In this document: positions 1 through 16,398 of the stretch, one piece after another
Layout: each line of letters opens with the position of its first letter
Numbering within the stretch: position 1 is the stretch's first letter
Virus record (IMG/VR): IMGVR_UViG_3300032050_000421
Location: 1 to 35,319 of that record
Direction: 5' to 3' (one strand)
DNA length: 35,319 bases
From: a virus
Program-made: the position numbers and the translations under genes
Notes under the pieces: generated by a model
Seen by the model: only the letters and a program-made list of their open reading frames with translations
What the model was told of the DNA's origin: nothing
Databases searched by the model: none

Positions 1-252
1 GGCTACGGTCTAGAATTTGACGGACAAGATAGATTAGCAGTAGATACAGATATAATCGCTACTAGAGCATTTGTTGAAGCTAGTACAGAGTTATATCAGG
101 ATGCAATAGATGATTTATTTATTCATCCGTATCACACAAATATAACAGCAACATATGACGATGCTAATAATAGAATAATTCTTGAAGGTTCCGCTTCTTC
201 TTCAACAAGCGGCGGAAGCAATTTAGCAAACTCATGGTGGCTAGGAGGATAA
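1..252 (+). CDS. Tail fibre protein, C-terminal fragment (5' end outside the window)
   Basis: Frame 1 is open from the first base to TAA at 250-252 and encodes 83 residues. It begins GYGLEFDGQDRLAVDTDI, followed by an ATRAFVE segment and a DLFIHPYHTNITATYDD segment. These are typical of repeat and end regions of phage tail fibres of uncultured aquatic phages, in which short 'G-L-E-F-D-G-x-x-L-A-V-D' beta units alternate with helices. The protein ends in a Ser/Gly-rich tail and WWLGG. The coding end contains the Shine-Dalgarno GGAGG of the next gene, which starts 1 base after the stop, so the two are probably co-translated. The fibre role is inferred from family resemblance. Total length and N-terminal anchor are unknown. 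Confidence 0.7.
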   Translation, partial: GYGLEFDGQDRLAVDTDIIATRAFVEASTELYQDAIDDLFIHPYHTNITATYDDANNRIILEGSASSSTSGGSNLANSWWLGG

Positions 253-253
253 T

Positions 254-709
254 ATGGCAGTTCAACGCTTAGGAATATCTAATCCAGCTCTTAATACAAG
301 CACATTGATATTTACGGCTACCGCTTCATATATGGCCTCCGTTATTGCCACAAATAAAGATACTACCGCAAAAAAGGCTAGGGCTTGGGTAGTACCTTCT
401 GGAGCAACCTTAGCTTCTCAATATGGATATATTCTATATGATGTAGACGTTCCAGCATACAATTCAATAGAGTCACACAGATTTGCAGTACAAAATGGCG
501 ATACGGTATATGTGAGAGCAGATACCGCAAATATGTCATTTTCTTTAAATGGTATTTATGATTCCACCGCCTCATTTGATAGCCACCTTACTCAGACTAC
601 AAATGTACATGGAATTGCAGATACATCACAGCTAGTAACTGTGAGCACGACAAATTCTCTAAATAACCGCCTAATTGCCATAGAATTAGGTCTAGGGATA
701 TTTGATTAA
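254..709 (+). CDS. Short beta-rich fibre-associated protein A1
   Basis: 151 residues. It is the first of three paralogues in the island (with 4822-5214 and 11256-11588). They share an N-terminal SNP-x-x-N-T-STLI patch in two of the three, an aromatic/Val patch (ARAWVVP here), a Y-[DS]-x-x-Y-D turn and a final G-D-x-V-Y-V-R-A / SFSLNGI strand pair. The alternating hydrophobic pattern suggests a small beta-sandwich. The C-terminal 30 residues (SLNNRLIAIELGLGIFD) look helical and may trimerise. It starts after GGAGG (244-248) and sits between two fibre genes, so a fibre-tip, chaperone or virion-decoration role is a guess from context. I do not recognise a named family. Confidence 0.72.
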   Translation: MAVQRLGISNPALNTSTLIFTATASYMASVIATNKDTTAKKARAWVVPSGATLASQYGYILYDVDVPAYNSIESHRFAVQNGDTVYVRADTANMSFSLNGIYDSTASFDSHLTQTTNVHGIADTSQLVTVSTTNSLNNRLIAIELGLGIFD

Positions 710-729
710 TACGACCAGAATGCTATAAT
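702..729 (+). promoter_or_regulatory. Predicted sigma70-like promoter before fibre B1
   Basis: An extended -10, TGCTATAAT, lies at 721-729, with a candidate -35 TTGATT at 702-707 (16-nt spacer). The expected start of transcription, 7 nt past the -10, is about 736. That lies inside the AGGAG at 735-739, giving a leader of only about 10 nt before ATG 746. Read from sequence only. Confidence 0.55.
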
Positions 730-745
730 ATTGTAGGAGACTAAA

Positions 746-2656
746 ATGCCAAATTATTCAAGTTTATCAACACAGATTACGGACATAAAGAACGAGATCA
801 GCTCGTCTCTTGCCGCATCTGCATATTCAGCTCAGGACTTGGTCTATGTTGCCAAAGCTCTTGAAGCATTAAGTAAAGTCGTCGCACCAGATGATGTCGA
901 TGAGATCACAGTTCTAAATAATATATATCTTGGCTCAACTGCAGAGGCATTTTCTACTAGCGCAGCTCTTACAAACCCAACACTTGTTGTTAAGAAATCA
1001 GCAAATGCTTATGTTCAAGTAGCACTACAGAATGGATCTAGTGGAGCTAGTGCTTCTTCAGATTTCTTAGCGTATGCAAATAATGGTACAGATGAAACAG
1101 GCTGGATCGATATGGGTATTACATCTAGCGCATTTAATGATCCAAACTTCACAATTACAGGTGCAAATGATGGATATATATTTATGTCTGCTCCAACAGG
1201 AACCACTGGTAAAGGAAATTTAGTTTTAGCAACAGATAGCACTGGTACAGAAAACAAGATTATATTTGCAGCAGGCGGATTATCTTCAGATAATGAGCAA
1301 ATGTCAATTACACCAGATGAAAATGTTCATATTGAAATTAATACAGCTTCAACATCTCCTTCAACAGGAGCACTAACAGTTGTCGGTGGTGTAGGAATTC
1401 AGGGTGATGTTAATATTGCAGGTAATATTACATTCGGTGGAACTGGAACTACAGTTCAAACAGGATCTCTTGCAGTAGATAATTCAATCATTTTCGTCGG
1501 TAATAATAACTCAACAGACGCATTAGATCTAGGTCTATTAGCAGAATATGCAACAGGAATTTCTCCTGTAACAAATACAATTACAAATAAAGCTCTTGCT
1601 TCAGATGTTGCTACACTTACAACAGGAACAGCCCATGGATTTGCTGCTGGAGATATTGCAGTAGTTACTGGAGTAGATGCAACATTTAATGGAACACACG
1701 TTATTGAATCTGTTCCAACATCAACAACATTCACATTTGTAAAAGATGCGGCAAACGTAACTAGCGCAGCAGTTTCTCCAGTTGGATCTGTAACTGTTTC
1801 TGCAAAGCGCAAATTTGCTGGTGTTGTTCGTGATGCAAGCGACGGAGTAGTAAAGTTTTTCCAAGATGCTACAACTAAGCCATCAACTACAGTAAATTTT
1901 GCTGAAGGCGGACTAACATATGCAGATATTCAGGTAGATGATATTGCTGCAGATGTAATTACTGCAAACTCAGCCACAATTGGCGATGTTTCTAACACAG
2001 AACTTCAGTATTTGAATGGTGTAACATCTGCAATTCAGACACAATTAGACGCTAAGCTCGGAACATCAACAGCATCATCAACATACGCACCATTATCAGG
2101 ACCAGCATTAACTGGAACTCCTACTGCTCCAACTGCAGCAGTAGATACAAATACAACTCAAATTGCTACAACAGCGTATGTTGTTGGACAAGGATACTTA
2201 AAATCTGCAGCAGCAGCTTCAAATTATGCACCGCTTACTGCAGCTTCTCTTGTACGTCCAGTTTTAACATCAGCATTTGAAACAGTTTCAGTTTCTGCAA
2301 CACAAGCAACTGGAACAGTTAACGTAGACTTGTCTACAGCAGCAGTTCATTACTATACAGGAAACTCAGCAGCTAACTGGACATTTAATTTCCGTGGTAA
2401 TTCTGGAACTACTTTAAACTCTTTACTTTCTGTTGGTCAATCTGCTACTGTAGCATTTTTAGCAACTAATACTACAGCATATTATCCTACCGCTTTTCAG
2501 ATTGATGGAACAGCAGCTGGGGTTACTGTAAAATGGCAAGGTGGAACAGCACCAACTGCAGGAAATGCTAACTCAATAGATTCATATACCTTTACAATTA
2601 TTAAAACTGCATCAGCAACGTATACAGTTCTCGCTTCACAAGTTAAATTTGCATAG
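746..2656 (+). CDS. Long trimeric tail fibre B1
   Basis: 636 residues. The first 50 residues are helical (SLAASAYSAQDLVYVAKALE) and are conserved in fibres B2 and B3. Next comes a beta region with GWIDMGITSS and DGYIFM patches, then the STGALTVVGGVGIQGDVN block (around residue 205), characteristic of fibres in aquatic phages. A 75-residue module (HGFAAGDIAVVTGVDATFNG) occupies about residues 273-354. Then follow a TELQYLNGVTSAIQTQLDAK unit (about 418) and a phage tail-fibre repeat (TPTAP...TQIATTAYV, about 456-480). The C-terminal 130 residues (NWTFNFRG...ILASQVKFA type) form a widespread fibre tip. Expected to assemble as a trimer at the virion surface and contact the host. It has its own promoter and an AGGAG ribosome site. 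Confidence 0.85.
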   Translation: MPNYSSLSTQITDIKNEISSSLAASAYSAQDLVYVAKALEALSKVVAPDDVDEITVLNNIYLGSTAEAFSTSAALTNPTLVVKKSANAYVQVALQNGSSGASASSDFLAYANNGTDETGWIDMGITSSAFNDPNFTITGANDGYIFMSAPTGTTGKGNLVLATDSTGTENKIIFAAGGLSSDNEQMSITPDENVHIEINTASTSPSTGALTVVGGVGIQGDVNIAGNITFGGTGTTVQTGSLAVDNSIIFVGNNNSTDALDLGLLAEYATGISPVTNTITNKALASDVATLTTGTAHGFAAGDIAVVTGVDATFNGTHVIESVPTSTTFTFVKDAANVTSAAVSPVGSVTVSAKRKFAGVVRDASDGVVKFFQDATTKPSTTVNFAEGGLTYADIQVDDIAADVITANSATIGDVSNTELQYLNGVTSAIQTQLDAKLGTSTASSTYAPLSGPALTGTPTAPTAAVDTNTTQIATTAYVVGQGYLKSAAAASNYAPLTAASLVRPVLTSAFETVSVSATQATGTVNVDLSTAAVHYYTGNSAANWTFNFRGNSGTTLNSLLSVGQSATVAFLATNTTAYYPTAFQIDGTAAGVTVKWQGGTAPTAGNANSIDSYTFTIIKTASATYTVLASQVKFA

Positions 2657-2668
2657 GAGGTTGGCTAA

Positions 2669-4822
2669 GTGCCACTATTAGAAACAATTGCAGCGGCAGC
2701 GGCAAAAGGATTTGGATTAACATCTTTCTTAGGTGCTTTTGATGAGTTCTTTAATAGAGTTACGCTACTTTTATCTGGTAATGGAAATAATCTAGGATCT
2801 AATAGTACTTTTACTGACTATAGTTCTGATAATGTCTTTTTAACTAAAATATCAAATGTTTCTCCAGGATCATTTAGCCCATTTTTAGATAATTATTCTG
2901 TTTATTATAATGGATCTTCATATTCGCAAGTTTCTCAAAACACCGCATTTCAATTTGGTACAGGTGAATTTACCATAGAATATTGGGTAAATGTTACTCC
3001 TGATGTAAATATTCAATCATACTGGACTGCTATGGCATCTGTTGGTGGTGTAGGATTTAATCAAAACGGTGTAGCAATATATCTAATGGATTCTTCATAT
3101 GGAACTGCTGGTGGAATTGCAGTTGATATGAATAATGGTGGCGGCGGGTTACGTCTTACAGACAATATAGATATTCGTGGAACTGGATGGAGACATATAG
3201 CAGTAACTAGAGATACATCTAATACAGTTCGTTTATTTTTAGATGGACAACTAAGACAATCTGGAACAAGCACTTTAAATATTAATGGTTCTGGAACATA
3301 CGGTTGTGTTATTGGTATAAGTGATAGTAGTAATAATAACTATTTTAAAGGATATATTTCTAATTTTAGAACTATAAAAGGAACAGCATTATATACATCT
3401 GCATTTACTCCACCTACAAATAAATTAACAGCAGTTACAAATACATCATTTTTAGCAAATCAATCAAATAGATGGAGTAAAGATTTGTCTGCTAATGATT
3501 TATCAATATTTGCAGGCGGAGGAACTCCAGAAATTTCTTCATTCTCTCCATTTAGAAGCATGTCTCCATATGCAACAACAGACGGAGCTTCCTATTACTT
3601 TGATGGAACAGATGATAAAATCCAAGTAGGAAATAATTCTGATCCTTACACAGCTTATTCTTCATGGTTACAGCAAAATGGCTCTAGAACTGGAACATTA
3701 GAAACTTGGGTATATTTAGATAGTCATGCCACATCTACAACTCCTTATATGCACAGATCATTCTGGAATAAGGGTAATACTTTTATGAATTTGGGTATTC
3801 GTGAAACTGGAAGAGTTAGATGGTATTGGTATGACGGAACAAAACAATGTTGGATAGATTCAAGTGGTTCGATAAGACTAAAAGAATGGAATCATATAGC
3901 TTTTGATTTAAATGGATCTTCGGTTGCTATATACATAAATGGTGTTTCTCAAAGTTTACTTCGATATACAGATGCTAATAACGGTGCACAAATTGCTTCA
4001 GATGGTATATATAGTGGAATTACAAATGTGTCAAATTATGCTTCTGGAGAACAGTTTCATGTTGGTGGTGGACCATCAAGCGTAGAAGCTCAAAATTATT
4101 GGAATGGATATATATCAAATCTAAGAATATTACCAGGTACAAGACTTTATACTGCTAATTTTACTCCACCAACTGCTCCACTTTCAAATGTTTCTGGAAC
4201 AAGACTTTTGTTAAAAGCGGAAAATACAGAAATTATAGACGCAACAAGAAATAATAATATTGAAACATTTGGAGATGTTAAGATATCTACTTCTGTTAAA
4301 AAATATGGAAGCGGGAGCATGGTCTTTGATGGGTCTGGAGATATAATTTTTACCTCAAACAAACCTCTAATTGGTATAGGAACTGGTAATTTTACAGTAG
4401 AAGGTTGGTTTTATCCAACAACTTGGACTGTAGAAAACTTGTTTAGAAGACTATGGTGTGTTGGCAGTTCATTAAGCAATGACTTTGGATTAAATATAAA
4501 TACTGATGGTACTTTACAATATAGAAACAACGACTCTATTCTAATTACCTCTAGTTCTGTTTTGCCCTTAAATAGTTGGACACACGTAGCCTTGTGCAGA
4601 AATAATGGAACTACCTCTTTATACTTTAATGGAATTTTTGTAGGAAGTACAAGTACTAATAATAATCTAAGCTCTGCGGCAAACAATAGATTAACTTTAG
4701 GAAATCACCCAAATCCATCTCAAGGAACATTTAATGGATACATAGATGATTTTAGAGTATCAAGATTTGCCAGATATACTGGTGCATTTACTGCTCCAGT
4801 TGAGGAATTTAAGAGGCAATAA
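2669..4822 (+). CDS. Triple LamG-domain adhesin C1
   Basis: 717 residues, GTG start 12 nt after the previous stop. The Shine-Dalgarno TAGGAGGT overlaps the B1 stop codon. Three concanavalin A/LamG-like jelly rolls (Laminin_G_3 type) follow one another at about residues 80-250, 300-500 and 550-715. Each has the family's order: a YxFDGxx start, an F-T-x-E-x-W strand, a W-x-H-[IV]-A strand, an LFxDG / IYINGV turn, and a closing GYISNFR / GYISNLR / GYIDDFR strand followed by LYT-x-x-F-x-PP or a variant. Such domains bind glycans, so this is a likely receptor-binding or cell-surface polysaccharide-binding protein acting with fibre B1. It has no catalytic motif I recognise. It ends in a TAATG overlap with the next gene. 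Confidence 0.83.
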   Translation: MPLLETIAAAAAKGFGLTSFLGAFDEFFNRVTLLLSGNGNNLGSNSTFTDYSSDNVFLTKISNVSPGSFSPFLDNYSVYYNGSSYSQVSQNTAFQFGTGEFTIEYWVNVTPDVNIQSYWTAMASVGGVGFNQNGVAIYLMDSSYGTAGGIAVDMNNGGGGLRLTDNIDIRGTGWRHIAVTRDTSNTVRLFLDGQLRQSGTSTLNINGSGTYGCVIGISDSSNNNYFKGYISNFRTIKGTALYTSAFTPPTNKLTAVTNTSFLANQSNRWSKDLSANDLSIFAGGGTPEISSFSPFRSMSPYATTDGASYYFDGTDDKIQVGNNSDPYTAYSSWLQQNGSRTGTLETWVYLDSHATSTTPYMHRSFWNKGNTFMNLGIRETGRVRWYWYDGTKQCWIDSSGSIRLKEWNHIAFDLNGSSVAIYINGVSQSLLRYTDANNGAQIASDGIYSGITNVSNYASGEQFHVGGGPSSVEAQNYWNGYISNLRILPGTRLYTANFTPPTAPLSNVSGTRLLLKAENTEIIDATRNNNIETFGDVKISTSVKKYGSGSMVFDGSGDIIFTSNKPLIGIGTGNFTVEGWFYPTTWTVENLFRRLWCVGSSLSNDFGLNINTDGTLQYRNNDSILITSSSVLPLNSWTHVALCRNNGTTSLYFNGIFVGSTSTNNNLSSAANNRLTLGNHPNPSQGTFNGYIDDFRVSRFARYTGAFTAPVEEFKRQ

Positions 4823-5214
4823 TGGCTATTTCTAGACTAGCAACATCTAATCCATCTTCAAATACAAGCACTTTAATTTATACTGGAGTTAGAACTATAT
4901 TATCATCTATTATTGCAGCTAATAAATCTTCTGATCCCGCCACAATTAGGGTTTGGGTTGTTCCACTAGATCAAGATGCTACACCAGCAAATCATTCTTA
5001 TGTATCTTATGATACACCAGTTGGCGGAAATGACTCTTTAGAAACTTTTAGATTTCCAGTTATGACGGGAGATAAGGTATATGTCAGAGCAAGCTCTGGC
5101 GATATTTCTTTTAGCCTGTCTGGAATTGATGATACAAATATACCAGGAACGGAGCTAGCAGACCTAGAAGCAGATATTGCCTTCGCTACTAATATAGCGT
5201 TGCTTGATATTTAG
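4822..5214 (+). CDS. Short beta-rich fibre-associated protein A2
   Basis: 130 residues, paralogue of A1 (254-709). It shares SNPSSNTSTLIYT versus SNPALNTSTLIFT, the I-x-V-W-V-V-P strand, SYDTPVGGNDSLETFRFPV and GDKVYVRASSGDISFSLSGI. It starts in a TAATG overlap with C1, with AAGAGG about 6 nt upstream acting as the ribosome site. The last 25 residues (ELADLEADIAFATN) look helical. Its repeated placement next to a B-type fibre says it belongs to the same functional cassette. The exact function is unknown. Confidence 0.72.
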   Translation: MAISRLATSNPSSNTSTLIYTGVRTILSSIIAANKSSDPATIRVWVVPLDQDATPANHSYVSYDTPVGGNDSLETFRFPVMTGDKVYVRASSGDISFSLSGIDDTNIPGTELADLEADIAFATNIALLDI

Positions 5215-5228
5215 CATAAAGGTATAAT
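5200..5228 (+). promoter_or_regulatory. Predicted sigma70-like promoter before fibre B2
   Basis: -35 TTGCTT at 5200-5205, 17-nt spacer, -10 TATAAT at 5223-5228. The predicted transcription start is about 5235, at the first base of GAGGAG (5235-5240), which precedes ATG 5246. The -35 overlaps the end of gene A2. Confidence 0.58.
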
Positions 5229-5245
5229 AGCCAAGAGGAGATAAA

Positions 5246-7297
5246 ATGCCATTTAATTTAACTACATTTGACGCAGCGCTACAGGCAAAGCTTAATACTG
5301 CCAGCGTTAGCTTAAGCGCACAGGATTACCTACTGCTCACAAAGGCTGTGGCGGCAGCAATAGAGGTATCAGAAGGTGTATCTCTTCTTAGTCTTAAGGG
5401 TACAGCAAATGGCGTAGCAGGATTAGATGGAACTGGTAATGTTCCTTTATCTCAACTTTTAAATGCAATTCCTTCCCAAGGTGCAAATTCTGGAAAATTT
5501 TTAACAACTAATGGAACAACAACATCCTGGGCTACAGTAGACGCTTTTCCTTCACAAACATCAAACTCTGGAAAACTTTTAACTACAAATGGAACTACAA
5601 CTTCATGGACAAATGCAGTTTCATTAGATGATGTTACAGTAGCTGATCAATTAAATGTTGGATCTTTGTCTGCAGGACTTAGAACAACTGATGGATATAC
5701 AAATCCAATGGCGGTATTTTCAACAAATCAACCAGACTACGCACAGCTTGTAATTAAAAATACAAATGCTGGCTCAGCTGCATCTACAGATTATATTGCA
5801 TATACAGATGATGGCGATGACAATGCTGGCTGGATTGATATGGGTATTACTTCAAGCTCATTTGCAGATCCAAACTTTACTATTACTGGAATCCATGATG
5901 GATACATATTTATGGAAGCTCCAGCAGATTCTTCAGGAACAGGTAATTTAGTTCTTGCTACTGGCGGTAATGGTACAGAAAATAAAATAGTATTTGCCGC
6001 TGGAGGTCTTCAAAGCGACAATACTCAAATGACTATTACTCCAGATGAGAATGTTCATATTGAAATAGCAACTCCTTCTACTTCTGCTACTACTGGCGCA
6101 TTAACTGTAGTCGGTGGAGTTGGTATTCAAGGAGATATGAATGTTGATGGAGATGTTTCAATTCAAGGAACTATTACATTTGGCGGTGGCGGAACAACTG
6201 TAGAAACATCCAATCTTGCAGTTACAGATCCAGCAGTATTTGTTGGTACAAATAATCAAGCAGATATTGTAGACCTAGCGTTTATTGGTGAATATGCTAC
6301 AACAGTTTCCCCAATTGTAGCTAGCGTAAGCAACAAGGCGTTGACAGATAATCTTGCAACATTGACTACATCTGCAAACCATACATTTTTAGTAGGAGAT
6401 GTAGTTACAATTACAGGAGTTGACGCTACATTTAATGGAACTTATAATATTAAAACAGTTCCTACTTCAACAACATTTACATATACTAAAACTGCAACAA
6501 ATGTAACATCAGCAGCAGTATCTCCTGTTGGAACAGCAACAGTAAATGCCCGTCGAAAGTTCTCTGGTATTGCAAGAGATGCTTCAGACGGAGTGATTAA
6601 AGCATTTAGGGATGCAACTACAAAACCTACATCAACAATTAACTTTTCAGAAGCTGGACTCACATTTGCACCATTTAAGGCGGGAGCTCTAGAAGTATCT
6701 TCTGCAACAATTGGTTCTGTTACAAATACTGAAATTGGTTATCTATCTGGTGTTACATCTGGAATTCAGACACAAATAAGCGCTAAATTAGATAGCTCAA
6801 CTGCTTCTAGCACATATGCACCTATAGCATCTCCAACATTTACTGGAACAGTAGTGTTGCCTAGCACAACCTCAATTGGAACAGTAGATTCAACAGAAAT
6901 AGGTTATCTAGATGGAGTTACTTCCAGTATTCAAACACAGCTATCTGCTAAACTAGATTCTTCTACAGCTTCATCTACATATACTCCATTACTTCAAACA
7001 ACTACAACTCCAGTATTTTCTGCAAATGCATATACTTTAGTTGCTGGAGACAAAGACAAGTTGGTACTTGCATCAAATGGGTCAACTGCTGGAACAATTA
7101 CAATTCCAACAGGAGTTTTTGCAACAGGTAGCGTAATAACTGTTGTTCAAACTGGAACTGGTCAACTCACATTTGCATCTAGTGGAACTATGAATTCTTA
7201 TAATAATCAGTATAAACTATCTGGCCAGTATGCTTCTTGTCAAATAATTGTGACAGCAAGTAATACATTCTTGCTAATCGGCAATTTGGCGGCTTAA
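5246..7297 (+). CDS. Long trimeric tail fibre B2
   Basis: 683 residues, paralogue of B1 and B3. The N-terminal helix (SLSAQDYLLLTKAVAAAIEV) matches the others. Two copies of an SGKFLTTNGTTTSW repeat sit near residues 80-125. The GWIDMGITSSSFADPNFTITG and STSATTGALTVVGGVGIQGD blocks match B1. The 75-residue module (HTFLVGDVVTITGVDATFNG) is at about residues 355-435. Two units of T-E-I-G-Y-L-[SD]-G-V-T-S-x-IQTQ-x-SAKLDSS follow at about residues 494 and 550. The C-terminal 90 residues (VAGDKDKLVLASNGSTAG onwards) form a different tip from B1, which suggests tip exchange between paralogues. A surface trimer for host contact is inferred from family knowledge. Confidence 0.85.
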   Translation: MPFNLTTFDAALQAKLNTASVSLSAQDYLLLTKAVAAAIEVSEGVSLLSLKGTANGVAGLDGTGNVPLSQLLNAIPSQGANSGKFLTTNGTTTSWATVDAFPSQTSNSGKLLTTNGTTTSWTNAVSLDDVTVADQLNVGSLSAGLRTTDGYTNPMAVFSTNQPDYAQLVIKNTNAGSAASTDYIAYTDDGDDNAGWIDMGITSSSFADPNFTITGIHDGYIFMEAPADSSGTGNLVLATGGNGTENKIVFAAGGLQSDNTQMTITPDENVHIEIATPSTSATTGALTVVGGVGIQGDMNVDGDVSIQGTITFGGGGTTVETSNLAVTDPAVFVGTNNQADIVDLAFIGEYATTVSPIVASVSNKALTDNLATLTTSANHTFLVGDVVTITGVDATFNGTYNIKTVPTSTTFTYTKTATNVTSAAVSPVGTATVNARRKFSGIARDASDGVIKAFRDATTKPTSTINFSEAGLTFAPFKAGALEVSSATIGSVTNTEIGYLSGVTSGIQTQISAKLDSSTASSTYAPIASPTFTGTVVLPSTTSIGTVDSTEIGYLDGVTSSIQTQLSAKLDSSTASSTYTPLLQTTTTPVFSANAYTLVAGDKDKLVLASNGSTAGTITIPTGVFATGSVITVVQTGTGQLTFASSGTMNSYNNQYKLSGQYASCQIIVTASNTFLLIGNLAA

Positions 7298-7298
7298 T

Positions 7299-9815
7299 AT
7301 GTCACGCCGCCTATTAGCAGGAGTGATTGCATCTAGCGGGTCTAGAGCACAATATAAAATTGCTAATAGTTTACGCATTGAGAGTGCAGAAAGCTCTCAG
7401 CTTTCAAGAACTCCAAGTGCAACTGGAAATACAAATAAATTTACTTTAAGTACTTGGGCTAAAAGGTCTTCTACTGGCGCATATCTTTATTTAGGAAGCT
7501 ATAGTAATTTTAGCGGTTCTGGGTGGTTTGACAATGTTGCATTTAATCCAGGTGATACCTTGGATGTTCTTTTAGCAAATTCAGGAAATAGCGGATTGGC
7601 GGCAAGATTAGTAACATCTACAGTATTTAAAGATTTTGCATCTTGGTATCACGTCGTTGTATCTGTAGATACAACTTTAGCTACCGCTAGTGATAGAATG
7701 AAAATTTATGTAAATGGAAATCAAATTACTGATTTCAGTACTGCTACATATCCATCTCAAAATTTTAATTTTACAAATATTAATGTTTCTGGAAGAACGC
7801 ATTACATTGGAAGAGAAGCATGGAGTTCTCCGAACTTATCAAATGGATATATTGCTGAATATCATCATATTGATGGGCAAGCTTTAACCCCATCATCTTT
7901 TGGAGAAATAGATTCTGCTACTGGACAATGGGTTCCTAAACAATATTCAGGGTCTTATGGAACAAATGGAGTATACTTAAATTTTAGTGATACATCTGGA
8001 ACGACGGCAACAACTTTAGGAAAAGATTTTTCTGGTAATGGAAATAATTTTACCCCTAGCGGATTTAGCGTTGCGGCAGGAATACAAAATGATGCTCTGT
8101 TAGATACTCCTACCGATTATGGAACTGACACTGGTCTTGGCGGAGAAGTAAGAGGAAATTATGCAACATTGAATCCTCTTGATAGAAGCTCTTATACTCC
8201 AGATGGAATTGGGTTTACTTATGGAAAAGGAAACCTACAACTAACCTCTAATACTACAGGTGATTCTAACTCTGGAGGTAGCACCTTTGTAATCCCACCA
8301 AATTCTGGTAAATGGTATTATGAAGCAACCTATACTCAAATAAGCACAGGTGGATCTGGATTTTTTTGGCATTATGTCAAAGACGCAGATAATTTAAATA
8401 ATAATATTGGTCACTGTATTGCGTACGGTGCTGCTAATCCTTGGGGAAGTTACGGATATTACAATTCAGCAACAGGATCTGGAGTAGCAACTTCTGCTAT
8501 AAGCAATGGAGCAATATTTCAAGTAGCTATTGATTCTGATACTCGTAAAATTTATATGGGAAATAATAATAGCTGGTACAATAGCGGAAATCCCTCAACT
8601 GGAACAAATCCAATAGGAACACTTGCTGGAACTGGCCCAATCATTCTCTCGTTTGGAGCTAGAACTGGATCTACTACTCAAGTCATTGATTTTAATTTTG
8701 GACAAAGACCATTTGCTTATACTGCTCCAACTAATTTTAAAACTTTATGTACCAAAAATTTACCAACTCCAGCAATATCTATTCCAAATCAATACTATGA
8801 TGCAGTTTTGTATGCAGGAAATAGTAACGGTTCTACTTCTGTAGGTGGACTCAATTTTTCTCCAGACTTAGTTTGGATTAAAAATAGAAGTGATTATGCA
8901 GATGGATCTTCAAACAATATGCTTTATGATGTCCTTAGAGGAACAACTAAACATTTAAGCACTGATAAAACAGATATAGAACAAACTTTAGCCACTGGAT
9001 TAAATTCTTTTAATCAAACAGGATTTAATCCAGGAAGCTCTACAAGAACAAATGAGAACGGCAAAAATTATATTGCTTGGTGCTGGGATGCAGGGGCAAC
9101 AGACTTAACTAATAATAATGGAACTGTTACATCAACAGTAAGAGTAAACCAAGCATCAGGTTTTTCTATTGTTAAATATAACACTGGAAATAATTTAAAT
9201 GCCTACACAGTTGGTCATGGTTTAGGCAAAGCTCCAAAATTTATTATGGTAAAAGGTGGATATACTACCGATGCATATAACTGGGATATTTATCATGCTA
9301 GTATAGGACCTACAAAAAGATTAAAAATAAATTCAACTGATGCTCCAGAAACTCAAGGAGGCCCCTGGGATAACACGACTCCAAGCTCAACTTTAATTTA
9401 TCAGAATAATCAAAATAATTATTGGTATGGCACTAATAGAAATGTTATAGCTTATTGCTGGACAGATATTCCTGGGTATAGTCAGTTTGCTTCTTACAGG
9501 GGTACTACTTCAGATGATGGACCATTTGTTTATTTAGGTTTTAGACCAGCTTGGGTTCTTATTAAAAGAACTGATGCTGGCGGGGATTTTTGGAATCTTA
9601 TGGACAGTAAAAGAGATCCAGTTAACATAACAAATGCTACAAATCGCCTCTACCCTAACTTTGTAAATAATGATGAGGTCGGAAACGTAACGGTTGACTT
9701 TTTATCAAATGGGTTTAAAATAAGAGATACTAACTCTAATAATAATGGAAGTGGAATGACATACGTTTATGCTGCTTTTGCAGAATCACCATTTAAGTAT
9801 GCCAGAGGTAGATAA
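7299..9815 (+). CDS. LamG/SPRY-like multidomain adhesin C2
   Basis: 838 residues. An N-terminal LamG jelly roll lies at about residues 45-200 (FTLSTWAKRSS, MKIYVNGNQI, YIAEYHHIDGQALTPSSFGE). After a linker (GKDFSGNGNNFTPSGFSVA) there is a SPRY-like region at about residues 295-480 (SGKWYYEATY). The remaining 350 residues (DLVWIKNRS, GKNYIAWCWDAG, HGLGKAPKFIMVKG, FRPAWVLIKRTD, YVYAAFAESPFKYARGR) match a domain common in marine phage fibre proteins (DUF7483-type, from memory). It starts one base after the B2 stop with no clear Shine-Dalgarno, so it probably depends on translation of B2. Likely a receptor-binding or virion surface protein. It ends in a TAATG overlap. Confidence 0.8.
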   Translation: MSRRLLAGVIASSGSRAQYKIANSLRIESAESSQLSRTPSATGNTNKFTLSTWAKRSSTGAYLYLGSYSNFSGSGWFDNVAFNPGDTLDVLLANSGNSGLAARLVTSTVFKDFASWYHVVVSVDTTLATASDRMKIYVNGNQITDFSTATYPSQNFNFTNINVSGRTHYIGREAWSSPNLSNGYIAEYHHIDGQALTPSSFGEIDSATGQWVPKQYSGSYGTNGVYLNFSDTSGTTATTLGKDFSGNGNNFTPSGFSVAAGIQNDALLDTPTDYGTDTGLGGEVRGNYATLNPLDRSSYTPDGIGFTYGKGNLQLTSNTTGDSNSGGSTFVIPPNSGKWYYEATYTQISTGGSGFFWHYVKDADNLNNNIGHCIAYGAANPWGSYGYYNSATGSGVATSAISNGAIFQVAIDSDTRKIYMGNNNSWYNSGNPSTGTNPIGTLAGTGPIILSFGARTGSTTQVIDFNFGQRPFAYTAPTNFKTLCTKNLPTPAISIPNQYYDAVLYAGNSNGSTSVGGLNFSPDLVWIKNRSDYADGSSNNMLYDVLRGTTKHLSTDKTDIEQTLATGLNSFNQTGFNPGSSTRTNENGKNYIAWCWDAGATDLTNNNGTVTSTVRVNQASGFSIVKYNTGNNLNAYTVGHGLGKAPKFIMVKGGYTTDAYNWDIYHASIGPTKRLKINSTDAPETQGGPWDNTTPSSTLIYQNNQNNYWYGTNRNVIAYCWTDIPGYSQFASYRGTTSDDGPFVYLGFRPAWVLIKRTDAGGDFWNLMDSKRDPVNITNATNRLYPNFVNNDEVGNVTVDFLSNGFKIRDTNSNNNGSGMTYVYAAFAESPFKYARGR

Positions 9816-9973
9816 TGCCAGGATATTTAACCAATAGGTACATAAGCCTAGATATCGTAAATCAATTTGATGAACTGAATACCGACCTTGCCGCTCTAGA
9901 CGCTTCTTTAAGTGCTAGAATGACAGCAGCGGAAGAAAATATAGAGGACTTACAGCTTAATATAGGGGTTTAA
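9815..9973 (+). CDS. Small coiled-coil protein (52 residues)
   Basis: A short open frame starting in a TAATG overlap with C2 and preceded by AGAGGT 5-6 nt upstream, so translational coupling is likely. It begins MPGYLTNRYISLDIVNQFDE. The rest (LNTDLAALDASLSARMTAAE, then ENIEDLQLNIGV) shows heptad-like spacing of Leu/Ile/Met and should form a coiled coil. It has no domain I recognise. It lies at the seam between the second and third fibre cassettes, so it could be a remnant of a fibre shaft or a small trimerisation subunit. Confidence 0.6.
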   Translation: MPGYLTNRYISLDIVNQFDELNTDLAALDASLSARMTAAEENIEDLQLNIGV

Positions 9974-9983
9974 ACCTAATTAA

Positions 9984-9992
9984 TGCTATAAT
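9984..9992 (+). promoter_or_regulatory. Predicted extended -10 promoter before fibre B3
   Basis: TGCTATAAT at 9984-9992, the same nine bases as before B1, with no convincing -35 upstream. The predicted start, about 9999, is one base before AGGAG (10000-10004). ATG is at 10010, 17 nt after the hexamer, matching B1 (16 nt) and B2 (17 nt). Confidence 0.5.
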
Positions 9993-10009
9993 TTCTAATA
10001 GGAGACAAT

Positions 10010-11254
10010 ATGCCATTTACAACAGAAATTACCAACGTCAAGTCAGAGATTAATGCTGGCTTAGCCGCCTCACAATATACAGCCAAAGATCTTGTATATG
10101 TATCCAAGGCAATCGAAGCTCTTGCAAACGCAGAAACAATAGCTGGCGTATTTGATACAGCAACAGTTCAATCAATTCTTTATGTAGGAAATCTTGCTTC
10201 AGCATTCGGTTCAGGTCTTACAAATCCAATTGCAGTATTTCAAACAAACGAACCAGACTATGCTCAAATAGCATTTAGAAATACAAGTTCTGCAGCAAAT
10301 GCATCAACAGATTTAATTCTTTATACAAATGACGGTACAGACGATACAGGCTGGATCGATATTGGTATGACTTCAACTAATTTTGCCGATCCAGATTTTA
10401 CTATTACTGGAAAGGGCGACGGATATATTTTCGTATCAGGTTCAGGTAATGATCAAAATGACAGAGGTAATTTAGTTCTTGCAACAGATTCAACGGGCAC
10501 ACAGAACAAAATTATTTTTGCAGCTGGTGGTCTATCATCTGATGATACTCAAATGGTTATCACTCCTGGCGTAAATGTCCATGTCGAAATTCCAACTGCT
10601 TCAACATCTCCAAGCACTGGTGCACTTACAGTTGTCGGCGGAGTTGGTATTCAGGGAGATGTAAATATACAAGGAGACATTACATTCGGCGGAACAGGAA
10701 CAACTCTTACAACAACTACACTTTCAGTTTCAGATGCTCAAGTTACAGTTGGTAGCGGAAACACAACAGACGCACTAGACCTTGGTATTGTTGGAAATTA
10801 TGGTGTTAGCGGAACTGCAAAATATACAGGTATTGTTCGTGACGCTACTGATGGAGTTTATAAATTCTTTAAAGATACAACTGTTGCCCCAGCTTCTGGT
10901 ATTGTAAATTTTGCGGGAGCAGGATTGGCATATGCAGATATTAAAGTTGGAGCAATTGATGCAACATCTTTAATTGTTGGCGATGTTTCTAATACAGAGC
11001 TTCAATATCTAAATGGAGTAACTTCAGCAATTCAAACACAAATAAATAGTAAAGCTGAATATCCACTTCAATCTGGAAATACAGGAAAATTTTTAACAAC
11101 AGATGGTTCAGTAGTTTCTTGGGCAACGGTAGATGCCCTTCCTTCTCAAACTAATAATTCTGGGAAGTATTTAACAACAAATGGAACATCGGCATCATGG
11201 GCTACCATTACAACAGACCCACTGCCAGATGTATTCTTATTGATGGGAGCATGA
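10010..11254 (+). CDS. Long trimeric tail fibre B3 (short form)
   Basis: 414 residues, the shortest of the three B paralogues. It has the same helical start (INAGLAASQYTAKDLVYVSK), the GWIDIGMTSTNFADPDFTIT and SPSTGALTVVGGVGIQGDVN blocks and one TELQYLNGVTSAIQTQINSK unit. It lacks the 75-residue module found in B1 and B2: the flanking sequence joins directly (LGIVGNYGVSGTAKYTGIVR). Its C-terminus carries two SGKxLTTxG-x(3)-SWAT repeats, which in B2 sit near the N-terminus. Likely a virion surface fibre that works with the downstream A3/E1/E2 proteins. Confidence 0.83.
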   Translation: MPFTTEITNVKSEINAGLAASQYTAKDLVYVSKAIEALANAETIAGVFDTATVQSILYVGNLASAFGSGLTNPIAVFQTNEPDYAQIAFRNTSSAANASTDLILYTNDGTDDTGWIDIGMTSTNFADPDFTITGKGDGYIFVSGSGNDQNDRGNLVLATDSTGTQNKIIFAAGGLSSDDTQMVITPGVNVHVEIPTASTSPSTGALTVVGGVGIQGDVNIQGDITFGGTGTTLTTTTLSVSDAQVTVGSGNTTDALDLGIVGNYGVSGTAKYTGIVRDATDGVYKFFKDTTVAPASGIVNFAGAGLAYADIKVGAIDATSLIVGDVSNTELQYLNGVTSAIQTQINSKAEYPLQSGNTGKFLTTDGSVVSWATVDALPSQTNNSGKYLTTNGTSASWATITTDPLPDVFLLMGA

Positions 11255-11255
11255 T

Positions 11256-11588
11256 ATGCCAACAGCATATAAAGTACTAGGAAGAAAAGCTTCTGCTGCT
11301 ACTACAATGGAAGAGCTCTATGCTGTTCCATCTTCAACTTCAGCTGTAATTTCAACAATTACAGTATGTAATAGATCAGCATCAGCAAGAACATATCGTA
11401 TTGCAATTAAACCAACAACAGGTACAACATTAGCAAATGAACATTATATTGCTTATGATGTTTCTATTCCAGCAAATGATACTACGGCACTAACTCTAGG
11501 CCTGACGCTTGCTACTGGAAATTCAATTCAAGTATATGCATCTGCTGCAGATTTAACTTTCCAAGCATTTGGTTCTGAGATAGTTTAA
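11256..11588 (+). CDS. Short beta-rich fibre-associated protein A3
   Basis: 110 residues, the most diverged member of the A family. It shares a V-x-N/C-N-x-S/T pattern (ISTITVCNRSASARTYRIAI), the YIAYDVSIPANDTT segment equivalent to YILYDVDVPAYNS in A1, and a closing GNSIQVYASAADLTFQAFGS equivalent to GDTVYVRADTANMSFSLNG. It lacks the helical tail of A1 and A2. It lies after its B fibre rather than before it, so the cassette order is rearranged here. Small beta-sandwich; function unknown, fibre-associated by context. Confidence 0.7.
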   Translation: MPTAYKVLGRKASAATTMEELYAVPSSTSAVISTITVCNRSASARTYRIAIKPTTGTTLANEHYIAYDVSIPANDTTALTLGLTLATGNSIQVYASAADLTFQAFGSEIV

Positions 11589-11599
11589 TAGGAGTAGCC

Positions 11600-12523
11600 G
11601 TGGGATTTTCTAGGCTTAGCTTTTCATCTCTTACTAAAGGTAATTTAAGATTTTTAAATGCCTCTCTATCTCCATTTAAATCAACAATAAGCGTAGAAGC
11701 TTTAATAGTTGCTGGAGGAGGCGGAGGCTGCGGCACGAGTGTTGGTGGTGGAGCAGGAGGCGGAGGTGCAGGAGGTCTTTTATATTACGGTTCAGAAAAA
11801 CCAAAAACTCCAAATGGTCCAGCATTAGAATTAACTCGTGGAATTACATATACATGTACAGTTGGTAATGGTGGAAATGGAGTTGGATCTCATGGAGATA
11901 AAGGACAAGATTCTTCTATTTCTGGATCTGGATTTACAACTTTAACAGCTATTGGTGGCGGCGGCGGAATGACAAGATCTTTAGATAGATCAAAATCTAC
12001 TGGTGGCTCTGGCGGCGGTGGTCCAGAATTTCCAGATGCATCAGTATACGGTTTTGGAACTCCTTTACAGGGAAATCCAGGAGGCTTTGGAGAAACAAAT
12101 GTAGGCGGCGGCGGTGGTGGCGGAGCAGGATCTCCAGGATCAAGTGCGTCAGCTTTAGGAGGTAGAGGCGGCGCAGGAGGTAATGGCTTAGGATATTTAA
12201 TAACTGGAACACTAACTTATTATGCAGGTGGTGGTGGCGGAAGTAGAAACAGTGGAGTTGGAGGGCCTGGTGGAATAGGCGGTGGTGGAAGTGGTGGAAG
12301 AGGTTCTGCAGGAACTGCTTGGGATACAAATATAAATGGACAAGCAAATACAGGTGGTGGAGGTGGAGGTTCATATGAAACTGCATCTGGAAATGGTGGA
12401 TCTGGTATTATAGTTTTAAGATCTTTATTCAAAGCTGCTTCTACTTCTGGAACAGTTACAGAAATTATAGATGGAGATTTTTATGTATATAAATTTACTG
12501 GAACAGGAACAATAGTTTACTAA
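11600..12523 (+). CDS. Glycine-rich adhesin E1
   Basis: 307 residues, GTG start after TAGGAG (11589-11594). About residues 35-275 are dominated by Gly-rich motifs (VAGGGGGCGTSVGGGAGGGG, GGGGGAGSPGSS, GGAGGNGLGY, GGGGGGSYETASGNGG) separated by short variable segments, ending with SGIIVLRS and YVYKFTGTGTIVY. This layout resembles glycine-rich distal adhesins such as gp38 of S16-type phages, whose poly-Gly II sheets present variable loops; that link is by composition, not demonstrated homology. It is a tandem paralogue of E2, joined by a TAATG overlap. Likely a receptor-contacting tip protein. Confidence 0.78.
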   Translation: MGFSRLSFSSLTKGNLRFLNASLSPFKSTISVEALIVAGGGGGCGTSVGGGAGGGGAGGLLYYGSEKPKTPNGPALELTRGITYTCTVGNGGNGVGSHGDKGQDSSISGSGFTTLTAIGGGGGMTRSLDRSKSTGGSGGGGPEFPDASVYGFGTPLQGNPGGFGETNVGGGGGGGAGSPGSSASALGGRGGAGGNGLGYLITGTLTYYAGGGGGSRNSGVGGPGGIGGGGSGGRGSAGTAWDTNINGQANTGGGGGGSYETASGNGGSGIIVLRSLFKAASTSGTVTEIIDGDFYVYKFTGTGTIVY

Positions 12524-14208
12524 TGTCTACAAAAAGATTTTCTTCTAATACAAAAAGTTCAAGTTTGTCTGGAGCACTTCCTCCTACACTAGAATATATT
12601 GTTGTCGGCGGCGGCGGTGGTGCAGGAGCATACTATTCTTGTGGCGGCGGTGGTGCTGGTGGATATAGATCTTCTGTTCAAGGAGAATCATCTGGTGGCG
12701 GAGCTTCAGCGGAACCAGTTTTTCAAATAACTCCTGGAGTAACATACAGAATTATAGTTGGTCGTGGAGGAAGAGGAGTAGTAGGAGATACAGCAACTCA
12801 AAGAGTAGAAAACGGACATAAGTCAGCTTTTCATAATATTGTTGCATATGGCGGAGGCGCAGGTAGCGCTGCACAAGCAGGAGCAGAACAAGCAGAAGTT
12901 GGAGGTTCTGGAGGTGGACAAAGAAATCCAGACAATAATGCCCCTGGAGGAGCTGGAATTGCTGGACAAGGATATCGTGGAGGAAACTCTATAGGAACAA
13001 ATTCATGGACTTCTCCATATTATCCAGGTGGTGGCGGTGGCGGTGCAGGTGGTCCTGGTGGAGATGTAAATACATCAACTACAGGAACTAATGGTGGAAT
13101 TGGAGTTCAGTCTTCTATAACTGGAATACCAACTTATTATGCAGGCGGCGGCGGAGGAAGCGCTCAAAATGGTGGAGCTGCTTCTGGATCAGGAGGACTT
13201 GGTGGCGGAGGAAATGCTGGAAACCCAGCTGGAGATAAAGGACATCCTGGTCAAAATGGGCAGCCAGGTACTGGTGGCGGCGGAGGAGCTGGAAATAGGT
13301 CTATGGGTGGACACGGAGGTTCTGGAGTTGTTATTCTAAGATATCCAAGTAAATATGCACCAGCATTAACTACAGGAAATCCAATAGTTACTATAGCAAA
13401 TGGATATAGAATTTATAAGTATTTAGGCAACGGCAGCATAACATTTGGAGAAAGTAAAAACTTTACAGATTTGTATACAAAAGATGAATTATTTTTAGAT
13501 TTTGATGCAGCTGATCTAGTATATTCAGATGGAGCAACTATTCCATCTGGAACATCTTTAGCACACAGAGATATTAGTGAAATACCATTAATTACTGGAG
13601 GTTCTTTAACATATGGAACTGCTAATGGAGGATTTTTAAATTTTGGTAATGCTGCGGGATATGCAAGATTTTTAGCTTCAGAAAAATATAAATGGACAGA
13701 ATTAAATAGAGCTAGAAGTGTTAGTTTAGTTTGTTGGTTTCAAAGTGATCAAACAAGCAGACAAGTTTTGCTATCAAGATTTTACAATATTGATTCATCT
13801 TATGATAATATAAGTGGTCAATTTAACCATATTGTTGATCCAACAGGAGATTATCATCATAATTCCAGTACAGTTATTGCTGGTGCAAACGGAGACTTAA
13901 ATACAAATTCGTGGTCAGCCAATACATGGACATTGTCTGTATGGACTTATGATGTTTCAGATGGATTTGCTAGATGGTATCAAAATAATGGAAACTTGAT
14001 TACATCTTTAAATTATGGCAATGATAATACCGAAGGTCTAACAACAGAAAAACAAGTTAATACTCCAGTTGGTTTAGGAACCAGATCAGATATATTTGAA
14101 ACTCTTCGTGGCAAAATTGCAATTGCTAGAGTTTATACAAAAGCGCTTTCTGTAGCAGAAATTCAACAAGAGTATAATTCTTACAAGACCCGCTTTGGCC
14201 TATCTTAA
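12523..14208 (+). CDS. Glycine-rich adhesin with C-terminal LamG-like domain E2
   Basis: 561 residues. The N-terminal half (about residues 25-275) repeats the E1 architecture: VVGGGGGAGAYYSCGGGGAG, FQITPGVTYRIIVGRGGRG, PTYYAGGGGGSA, GSGVVILRYPSK, then GYRIYKYLGNGSITF. The C-terminal half (about 325-558) is LamG/concanavalin-like (FLDFDAADLVYSDG, SLVCWFQSDQTSRQVLLSRF, ARVYTKALSVAEIQQEYNSY). It combines the two adhesin types of the island in one chain, so it looks like a fusion of an E1-like unit with a lectin domain. It starts in a TAATG overlap with E1. Probable receptor-binding protein. Confidence 0.8.
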   Translation: MSTKRFSSNTKSSSLSGALPPTLEYIVVGGGGGAGAYYSCGGGGAGGYRSSVQGESSGGGASAEPVFQITPGVTYRIIVGRGGRGVVGDTATQRVENGHKSAFHNIVAYGGGAGSAAQAGAEQAEVGGSGGGQRNPDNNAPGGAGIAGQGYRGGNSIGTNSWTSPYYPGGGGGGAGGPGGDVNTSTTGTNGGIGVQSSITGIPTYYAGGGGGSAQNGGAASGSGGLGGGGNAGNPAGDKGHPGQNGQPGTGGGGGAGNRSMGGHGGSGVVILRYPSKYAPALTTGNPIVTIANGYRIYKYLGNGSITFGESKNFTDLYTKDELFLDFDAADLVYSDGATIPSGTSLAHRDISEIPLITGGSLTYGTANGGFLNFGNAAGYARFLASEKYKWTELNRARSVSLVCWFQSDQTSRQVLLSRFYNIDSSYDNISGQFNHIVDPTGDYHHNSSTVIAGANGDLNTNSWSANTWTLSVWTYDVSDGFARWYQNNGNLITSLNYGNDNTEGLTTEKQVNTPVGLGTRSDIFETLRGKIAIARVYTKALSVAEIQQEYNSYKTRFGLS

Positions 14209-14221
14209 TTTGTAGTATAAT
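14195..14221 (+). promoter_or_regulatory. Predicted promoter for a leaderless start of F
   Basis: -10 TATAAT at 14216-14221. The predicted transcription start 7 nt past it is 14228, exactly the A of the ATG. No AGG-type ribosome site exists in the 19-base gap after the E2 stop. A weak -35-like TTGGCC lies at 14195-14200 (15-nt spacer). Confidence 0.55.
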
Positions 14222-14227
14222 AATATT

Positions 14228-15997
14228 ATGACATACCAACTAAAGGTAATTAAAGATTATCCAATAGGCTTCTGGCCGTTGGATGAAACTTCTGGTTCCA
14301 CCGCCGCTGATATTTCTGGCTGCGGAAATAATGGAACAATTACGGGCGGATTTACAACAGGAATAATTCCTTTAGTATCAGGCGGATTAACTGCAACTAA
14401 TATAACAAGCACACGCTATTTAACAATACCTTGTGATAATGATTATTATGGATCTACCGCAGACGGCGGATTTGCAGATGAGAACTCATCAGATAATGAC
14501 TTTACTTTAGAATGCTGGATATATCCAAAATTCACTACAGCTAACTCGGCTCCAATTATGGCGGATGATAACACATCTATTGGAATATATTATGAAGCGG
14601 GCAATATAGTATTCCAACTAGAATCAGAAAGATTAGATTATAGTCTTCCTATTGTTTCTGCTGTTCATCACATTGTTGCAACATATACTCCAAGCGAGAT
14701 GATTTTATATGTTGATGGAGAATTGGCTGCAAGCAAGCCCCTATCAAACTTTGCTTTTACTAATGCAGAACTTACATTAAAAATTGGACCTACGGCAAAT
14801 GCGTCAGACTCATTTTTGATTGATGCCCCAGCAGTATATAGATATGCTTTGTCTCAATCAATCATATTAGAGCATTATTCTTATAATGGAGTTGTGCCTC
14901 CAGTTCAAATTGCCGATCCTGAGAACGGCACATTATTTGAAATTTTAGACGATAATGTATCTACTCAATATAAATTTTCTTACCCAGCAAACCGTCCACT
15001 AGATGTATTTTTTGATGATGATCTAGAATATAATCAAGACAAGAAGTATCTTGGAATTATTAAATCAACGGGATCAAAAACAGTTGTTGTAGAAGACGCT
15101 ATTGCAATTCCTCTTGGCTTTGACATAGATTCTTCTAAAATTGAGTGGGATTCAAATGATGGTGTTTCAGTTAGGACAAAGGTTGAAGGTGGATCTTATC
15201 AAACAGCATATAACGGAAGAGCCATTCCTCAATTTAAATTAGGCGGGACATTTAGTTCTGAAAGAGTAATTTATTTAGAAATAACATTCACAACTACAGA
15301 TGCAAGCAAATATATTCCTAAACTATTTAATCTATCATTATCATTTTATAATGATCAAAAAGTGTTTGCTTATACTAACTCTGATTATATTTATACTTTA
15401 GACGGCTTTGCAGGCTCTACAGATAATGAAATTGCTATGGGTAGAGATAAGCATAGGGCTATCTCTAGACACCCCCGCAATGGCCTTAGAACGGGTTCTG
15501 CGGCGGGTTTCAGAGTAAGTACACTAGAATCTACCAAGACAGTAGAACTATTCTTTACGCCCTCTACAACAGGAGCAAATACCCTATTCTATTCTCCAGC
15601 TTCAACTGGATTCACAGAGACTGAATATTCTTGGAATGGCTCAGGATCAATTGCAAAAACAAATATTTCCGCAATCTACGTAAATGGTATAAATCAGACA
15701 AGTCAGACAAATGTATCAAATGTCTTTACGGCTGGTGATCTACATCACGTAGTTTTGGTATTTACGGCATCTGCCACTGGAGACTTTAGATTTAATTATA
15801 AGTCTTCAGGTGGTCCATCTAGCCTATATCAATATATATCTTATTATCCATTGGCATTTAGCCAGTCAAATGCTTTGGCCCATTACAATATGCATATTGG
15901 AATCCCTGCCCTTTCGGTAGATGATTCGTCATTCACCCTGACAGAAAATGCTGTTGAGTATTATAATAACGACTGGATTGTTGTCCAAAGCGTATAA
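14228..15997 (+). CDS. LamG-domain fibre/adhesin protein F
   Basis: 589 residues. A LamG jelly roll occupies about residues 1-215 and opens with the typical YPIGFWPLDETSGSTAADIS, followed by FTLECWIYPKF and MILYVDGELAASKPL. A middle beta region (about 225-385) and a second jelly-roll-like region (about 395-560, TKTVELFFTPSTTG, DLHHVVLVFTASATGDFRF) follow. Proteins with this opening are common in uncultured freshwater and marine phages. It is probably a surface protein that binds host glycans. It lacks a Shine-Dalgarno and appears to be translated from a leaderless transcript. It is the last adhesin gene before the head module. Confidence 0.78.
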   Translation: MTYQLKVIKDYPIGFWPLDETSGSTAADISGCGNNGTITGGFTTGIIPLVSGGLTATNITSTRYLTIPCDNDYYGSTADGGFADENSSDNDFTLECWIYPKFTTANSAPIMADDNTSIGIYYEAGNIVFQLESERLDYSLPIVSAVHHIVATYTPSEMILYVDGELAASKPLSNFAFTNAELTLKIGPTANASDSFLIDAPAVYRYALSQSIILEHYSYNGVVPPVQIADPENGTLFEILDDNVSTQYKFSYPANRPLDVFFDDDLEYNQDKKYLGIIKSTGSKTVVVEDAIAIPLGFDIDSSKIEWDSNDGVSVRTKVEGGSYQTAYNGRAIPQFKLGGTFSSERVIYLEITFTTTDASKYIPKLFNLSLSFYNDQKVFAYTNSDYIYTLDGFAGSTDNEIAMGRDKHRAISRHPRNGLRTGSAAGFRVSTLESTKTVELFFTPSTTGANTLFYSPASTGFTETEYSWNGSGSIAKTNISAIYVNGINQTSQTNVSNVFTAGDLHHVVLVFTASATGDFRFNYKSSGGPSSLYQYISYYPLAFSQSNALAHYNMHIGIPALSVDDSSFTLTENAVEYYNNDWIVVQSV

Positions 15998-16059: not shown

Positions 16060-16398
16060 ATGGATATTAAAAGAGTCAATCAGTCAGTTGTAGAAGATAC
16101 AATTTTGGGTATTTATGTCTGGGAGATGCCAGATGGTCGCTGGATTGGCGATGATGACGGAAATTTCCTATCAGTTACTTCTAAAAAAGGTAATAGGCAA
16201 AGAATGAACCTGCTTGCTGATGCTGTTAGATCTTATGGTATTTATGAAGGACAGCCTAAGTTTTTGGCGGGTAAAAGAAAGATTGATGACGAAGAATATC
16301 AGCATCAAAAGCAAAGATTGGATTGGGGACTAGTTCCAGATCCATATGATATTGGTAGTTATAAAGATGAAATGAAAAAGGTACAGGGTAAAAGATAA
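16060..16398 (+). CDS. Unknown small protein upstream of portal
   Basis: 112 residues, charged, no signal peptide or membrane segment. The N-terminus holds a beta-like stretch (TILGIYVWEMPDGRWIGDDD) and a basic patch (SKKGNRQRM). The C-terminus is Asp/Glu/Lys-rich with LDWGLVPDPYDIGSYKDEMK. It ends in a TAATG overlap with the portal gene, so the two are translationally coupled and it probably belongs to the head module (a packaging or portal accessory protein would fit the position). I do not recognise the family. Its own promoter and leaderless start make it the first gene of the head transcription unit. Confidence 0.75.
   Translation: MDIKRVNQSVVEDTILGIYVWEMPDGRWIGDDDGNFLSVTSKKGNRQRMNLLADAVRSYGIYEGQPKFLAGKRKIDDEEYQHQKQRLDWGLVPDPYDIGSYKDEMKKVQGKR

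Follow-up and report, generated by a model that had tools for sequence, protein, structure and literature searches.

The closest described counterpart of the locus analysed here is the pair of fibre gp37 and adhesin gp38 in T-even phages (T2, PP01, S16), in which the adhesin gene lies directly behind the fibre gene, the adhesin body is glycine-rich and an N-terminal part of about 110 residues fits the phage's own fibre; the gp37 of T2 rejects the gp38 of PP01 unless the N-terminal 113 amino acids of gp38 are swapped (PMC12892980). In the gp24/gp25 system of cyanophage Pam3, a glycine-rich host-binding body also sits on a trimeric fibre, but shaft and body form a single protein and gp25 is a chaperone that is absent from virions (PMC9608196). 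Metaviromic host-recognition islands of marine phages are variable, under-recruiting and rich in genes for tail fibres, lectins, gp38 and Fe(II)-oxygenases, as is the island described below with respect to its variable content; they are defined by read recruitment, however, and the accessible part of that report describes no pairing of tags and sockets (PMC3909814).

The window, i.e. the whole stretch of DNA analysed, is an IMG/VR fragment of 35,319 bases. Like a T-even phage, the phage it comes from carries adhesin-type genes directly behind fibre genes, and their N-termini, judged by genomic pairing and co-variation, appear to fit the respective fibre. Glycine-rich bodies may be a further similarity, as suggested by Gly_rich_2 domains in E1 and E2 of the list below and in 22 of the 58 partners retrieved by search, with Gly_rich_2 not in C1 or C2. 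In contrast to gp38, the putative plug comprises only about 16–20 residues, the bodies belong to several unrelated folds, and a single phage combines several socket/plug types with one to three adhesins per fibre. Moreover, a phmmer search with E1 against all PDB chains, gp38 of S16 included, gave no match at E 0.1. By analogy, the partners may work like gp38 if they dock as suggested here, but because no homology to gp38 was found, we do not class them as gp38.

Phage identity and borders of the island

The phage was placed by its portal protein, which is 55–60% identical to portals of the Stanwilliamsviridae, a group of ~130 kb Streptomyces siphophages (cluster BE, e.g. Comrade and StarPlatinum); its portal, tape measure and tail genes are orthologous to and collinear with theirs. 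By these genes this lake phage is a freshwater relative of the family, distinguished by a low GC content of ~37%. Since a WhiB gene, i.e. a type of regulator regarded as an actinophage marker (PMC10202952), is present in four of six contigs from relatives and the GC content is near 37%, the host is likely to be a freshwater actinobacterium.

In Comrade, genes for a glycosyltransferase, ribonucleotide reductase and a LysM endolysin are followed by gp23, gp24, portal, protease and capsid, and further on by tape measure and hub, with the terminase (gp88) located ~49 kb downstream of the portal. The window phage keeps the order of glycosyltransferase, ribonucleotide reductase and then gp23 (our F), gp24 and portal, but has an adhesin island where Comrade has a single LysM endolysin. 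The terminase large subunit of its relatives (61–63% identical) again lies far downstream, 40–45 kb from the portal where this is measurable (contigs G001 and G003). A preliminary description of this DNA had seen an anomaly in the missing terminase upstream of the portal and in the fibre genes found there instead. This idea has to be given up, because Comrade and the large relatives show that a remote terminase and a pre-portal F are normal for the family.

A second sample yielded a contig of this phage that matches window positions 14–13211 at 100% identity and reaches 7.26 kb further upstream; coordinates below 1 refer to positions on this contig. It carries genes for a glycosyltransferase (−5603), ribonucleotide reductase (−4482) and a 74-aa protein (−2477), followed by virion-type genes from −2165 onwards and then by P0 (−98 to 252) ahead of A1, all of these virion-type genes lying behind the ribonucleotide reductase gene. 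Because virion-type genes are thus present upstream of position 254, the island has to be placed between the ribonucleotide reductase gene and F, starting near −2165 and ending at 14208. The features are as follows.

1 to 252, + strand (start 98 bases before the window): P0, 3' end of the gene for a 116-aa fibre-related protein, precedes A1; longer version in relatives
254 to 709, + strand: A1, small virion-type protein, constant (81% mean identity, 7 orthologues)
746 to 2656, + strand: B1, constant fibre (75% mean identity, 8 orthologues)
2264 to 2653, + strand: putative socket domain at the C-terminus of B1, phrog_5906-like beta-sandwich (AF2 pLDDT ~88–97 over most of it)
2669 to 4822, + strand: C1, exchangeable partner with three Laminin_G_3 domains; start codon GTG
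2669 to 2725, + strand: predicted docking tag of C1, (M)PLLETIAAAAAKGFGLTS
4822 to 5214, + strand: A2, constant (89% mean identity, 9 orthologues), an eight-stranded jelly roll in AF2
5246 to 7297, + strand: B2, constant shaft, ends ...ASCQIIVTASNTFLLIGNLAA; the last ~100 aa are of another type than in B2 of most relatives
7299 to 9815, + strand: C2, exchangeable partner, DUF7483; N-terminus MSRRLLAGVIASSGS is a candidate tag, three fibres of this type seen
10010 to 11254, + strand: B3, constant fibre, ends ...DPLPDVFLLMGA
11256 to 11588, + strand: A3, constant (86% mean identity, 7 orthologues)
11600 to 12523, + strand: E1, exchangeable glycine-rich partner, Gly_rich_2; N-terminus VGFSRLSFSSLTKGN (slot-3 tag); start codon GTG
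12523 to 14208, + strand: E2, second slot-3 partner, Gly_rich_2 plus LamG-like tail; N-terminus MSTKRFSSNTKSS
14228 to 15997, + strand: F, fixed pre-portal LamG-type protein with one Laminin_G_3 domain, orthologous to gp23 of the Stanwilliamsviridae and bounding the island on the right
16060 to 16398, + strand: small conserved gene between F and portal, orthologue of Comrade gp24
16398 to 17978, + strand: portal protein, by which the phage was placed

What stands of the ~16 kb island originally drawn from 254 to 15997 is therefore an adhesin island in front of the portal, with its left border moved out from 254 and with F no longer counted as a cassette. F aligns with Comrade gp23 over its full length (26% identity, E 3e-39), precedes the portal in 55 of 55 related loci examined and is thus a constant, conserved pre-portal gene of the Stanwilliamsviridae.

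Outside the island, the hub gene, which is a single ORF of 1092 aa in the relative G017, is split in the window into 32184–34418 and an overlapping frame from 34403, possibly owing to a frameshift or an assembly error near 34,400. Two small ORFs at 24602–25266, between the major tail protein and tape measure genes, resemble the usual pair of tail assembly chaperones. An Ig-like insert of ~120–150 aa (29–35% identity) is common to B1, B2 and the hub protein (window 746–2656 and 32184–34418).

Constant backbone and exchanged partners

Within the island the gene order is A1-B1-C1, A2-B2-C2, B3-A3-E1-E2 and then F, with the ORFs located where they had been placed before. Pairwise similarity bears out the earlier view that three A and three B copies are interleaved with differing lectin-type partners: A1 and A2 are 47% identical (E 3e-28), A3 is 31% identical to both (phmmer E 2e-8 and 2e-11), and B1, B2 and B3 share 55–60% across 225–419 residues (E 1e-67 to 1e-149). 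The A proteins may be structural adaptors. For A2, AF2 predicts the jelly roll confidently, with unspecific PDB matches (IBDV VP2, TNF, CBM); at the sequence level, B1, E1 and A2 found no meaningful match in the PDB.

In nine related contigs, as far as each of them reaches, the order P0-A1-B1-[slot 1]-A2-B2-[slot 2]-B3-A3-[slot 3]-F-portal is kept. Across up to nine relatives, the backbone proteins are homologous in every pair, with mean identities of 81% (A1), 75% (B1), 89% (A2), 69% (B2), 76% (B3), 86% (A3) and 54% (F). The slot proteins, which include LamG, fibrinogen-like, fn3 and glycine-rich domains, are homologous over half their length in only 6 of 36 pairs for slot 1, 11 of 28 for slot 2 and 7 of 28 for slot 3 (first gene in the latter two), in each case at ~40% identity. 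Whole modules also come and go, since the window phage lacks two small genes that most relatives carry before B2, as well as a further module of theirs that comprises f9, an f3 fibre, a PASTA-type partner and others.

The proposal of constant genes with exchangeable partners made in the preliminary description thus fits these relatives, and the outcome it had named as speaking against it, an island that is fixed and collinear with no variation at the level of cassettes, was looked for in the related contigs and not found: the A and B genes stay collinear and conserved, but partners are swapped. The proposal needs adjustment in that whole modules are also gained or lost and in that the border between constant and variable sequence lies ~16–20 residues inside each partner, in a tag matched to the fibre ahead of it, and not at the gene border.

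In the adhesin island of many relatives there are also runs of genes for proteins of 200–260 aa, comprising 2OG-Fe(II) oxygenases (Pfam) and an unnamed family of 230–260 aa (upstream of F in loci L036, L040, L042, L051, L058 and L060; also L187:4674–6599 and L184:6647–7366). Some loci with such runs encode collagen-like proteins as well. Both the oxygenases and the unnamed family may modify adhesins.

A short N-terminal tag paired with the fibre end

The exchanged partners have a common N-terminal tag of ~16–20 residues, whose type follows from the C-terminal domain of the fibre encoded ahead of it and not from the partner's own body. This match between tag and fibre end, as read from the genomes compared, appears to be the new element here; no report of the tag was found in the open-licence literature. 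MPLLxTxGAASAKGFG stands behind B1-type fibres, and tags of other kinds stand behind those of B2 and B3 type. Among the related contigs, seven phages have MPLLETxGSSSAKxFGLNS behind B1, but two with a variant B1 end have MPIITTIRGNxxPFGKR instead. The usual B2 is followed by MPF(I/V)NSVRGxFGAQGR, carried by one to three tandem genes, and B3-A3 by MAISKxSxSxLxSG, usually in two tandem genes. Slot-1 partners agree in 66% of their first 16 residues, whereas their bodies are homologous in only 2 of 21 pairs; tags of different slots agree at 12–29%. Within slot 3 the tag is loosely conserved (32% identity). C1 starts 12 bases after B1 and C2 one base after B2. In 33 pairs, including the B1/C1 junction of the window, the partner starts in the reading frame of the fibre, 0–12 bases from the fibre stop, probably a case of translational coupling. 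Another fibre type, f3, which ends in LKLRTQWSSATLxKRAxNSWVVxGDLSA, is followed by partners whose basic N-terminus (MARKFGKHGRRK) leads into a PASTA domain (L187:2427–4677, similarly in L190, L194 and L198); this is likely to be another socket/plug pair.

With the B1 C-terminal domain as query, many further phages were retrieved, yielding 108 non-redundant fibres of this type (B1c) with a downstream ORF. The tag is found in the next ORF for 91 of the 108, compared with 6 of 2342 behind all other ORFs of the same loci, and in the ORF after that for four more (95/108). Nine of the remaining 13 fibres are of a B2c subtype, and each of these precedes the B2c tag or a variant form. Behind a few B1c fibres no tag could be recognised. 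The 58 partners retrieved include, besides the 22 with Gly_rich_2, bodies with DUF7483 (10) and Laminin_G_3 (4) as well as beta-propeller and fn3 bodies. Because this set had been chosen by the fibre, IMG/VR was also searched in reverse by the tag alone, using a degenerate DNA pattern. This gave at least 120 sites, 112 of them with upstream sequence, and among the matches listed 111 of these 112 testable sites lie directly behind a B1-type fibre. Since clustering at 80% identity divides the matches listed into 91 groups and their bodies belong to 26 families, the sites are not independent but do not represent a single lineage either.

The pairing also occurs in named phages. Cyanophage S-MbCM6 has the tag MPFFSQLSGGVSAGFG in a fibre/partner pair, roseophage CRP-3 has MPFLASFGGGSARGFN with one small ORF between fibre and tagged gene, and in podovirus ctXG6705 the protein tagged with MPLLQRTGSMGAKGFG is annotated as 'phage tail fiber adhesin gp38'; a weaker form, below the score cut-off, is present in Prochlorococcus phage P-SSM7. 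In the cultured Actinomycetia phage DSL-LC01 (L181:32222–38212), a B1c-like fibre is followed by the tag-like N-terminus MPVLSLLSARSLANTATKRVFGSF, and the same stretch contains a tryptophan halogenase gene adjoining genes for collagen-like proteins and an A-type protein.

For structure prediction, the tag was joined to the B1 end by reading through the stops, and the 33 in-frame pairs served as AF2 input. In this single chain, the B1 C-terminal domain is a confident beta-sandwich, while the tag has a pLDDT of only ~50, the monomer being perhaps the wrong state. In Foldseek searches, the PDB matches of the B1 end are weak, the best being the capsid spike of phage Pa223 (E 1e-3), followed by the T4 fibre connectors gp10 and gp9, and in BFVD it matches many phage fibre proteins.

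Proposed docking versus other explanations of the pairing

An important question is whether the tag is kept for its peptide or for its DNA. It sits right at the border of exchange, usually 0–12 bases behind the fibre stop, where a mere recombination joint would also be placed, i.e. homologous border DNA that lets whole partner genes be swapped and has no docking role. Yet codons 2–16 of the tags have pN/pS values of 0.40 (slot 1) and 0.48 (slot 2) at a pS of ~0.5, meaning that about half of the synonymous sites have changed: the tags are under purifying selection, and it is the peptide and not the DNA that is kept. In addition, two or three tandem slot-2 partners are all tagged, whereas only the first would need a joint, and tags are kept between phages with otherwise unrelated DNA, which makes the joint an unlikely explanation. 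Fibre end and tag also co-vary when body and shaft are taken into account (partial Mantel r = 0.42, p = 2e-4, 64 pairs). Together with the pN/pS values, this argues for selection acting on the peptide relative to the fibre end, and hence for docking, more than for a recombination joint; that a tag lies beside the gene of its fibre may still be due in part to homologous recombination there.

The partners could also be fibre chaperones of the Tfa or T4 gp38 kind, which would bind the tip during folding with the tag as client-binding peptide and then leave; T4 gp38 and Pam3 gp25 do aid fibre folding and are absent from the mature particle (PMC12892980, PMC9608196). However, the partner bodies of ~200–1000 aa are lectin-type, fn3 or beta-propeller structures with no Pfam match to tail fibre assembly proteins, and they vary like host-binding proteins while their supposed client stays constant, so we regard such a role as decidedly improbable. 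It seems even harder to believe that this is just an ordinary variable tail-fibre locus, in which host-binding genes diverge fast without any specific docking code. Marine phages do have metaviromic islands in which genes for fibres, lectins and gp38 abound (PMC3909814), but a locus of this kind predicts neither that the tag would lie behind its fibre type at 111 of 112 testable sites among the matches listed nor that distinct fibres within one phage would have distinct tags.

Overall, our data directly demonstrate constant fibres, exchanged bodies and a common tag that is paired with the fibre end in genomic searches from either side, co-varies with it and is under purifying selection. On this basis, we consider it probable that the island encodes a multi-socket adhesin array, in which exchangeable tip adhesins would dock via short tags onto constant fibre sockets. 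Each B gene would provide a constant tail fibre, with the conserved beta-sandwich at the end of B1-type fibres and of the relatives' diverged B2 type acting as socket. Behind each fibre, one or more genes would encode tip adhesins, presumably virion-borne and host-binding, with unrelated bodies (LamG, DUF7483, glycine-rich, fibrinogen-like, fn3 or beta-propeller), the short N-terminal plug of which would fit its own socket on the fibre tip. With several socket/plug types per phage, each fibre should receive its own adhesins only, and recombination could swap adhesins while leaving the fibre untouched.

At a larger scale, we lean slightly towards the view that aquatic phages widely use a modular docking code, in which a short N-terminal peptide suffices for mounting adhesins of unrelated folds on a trimeric domain conserved at the fibre tip, several mutually exclusive peptide/socket types coexist per virion, and adhesins that keep their plug move between phages of different bacterial phyla. 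If docking is confirmed, it would explain how unrelated lectin folds can be carried by the same fibre and several adhesins by one phage without mis-assembly. Host-binding proteins in such aquatic phage genomes are mostly 'hypothetical', and the tag could then become a sequence signature for finding tip adhesins together with their fibres in unannotated genomes of aquatic phages.
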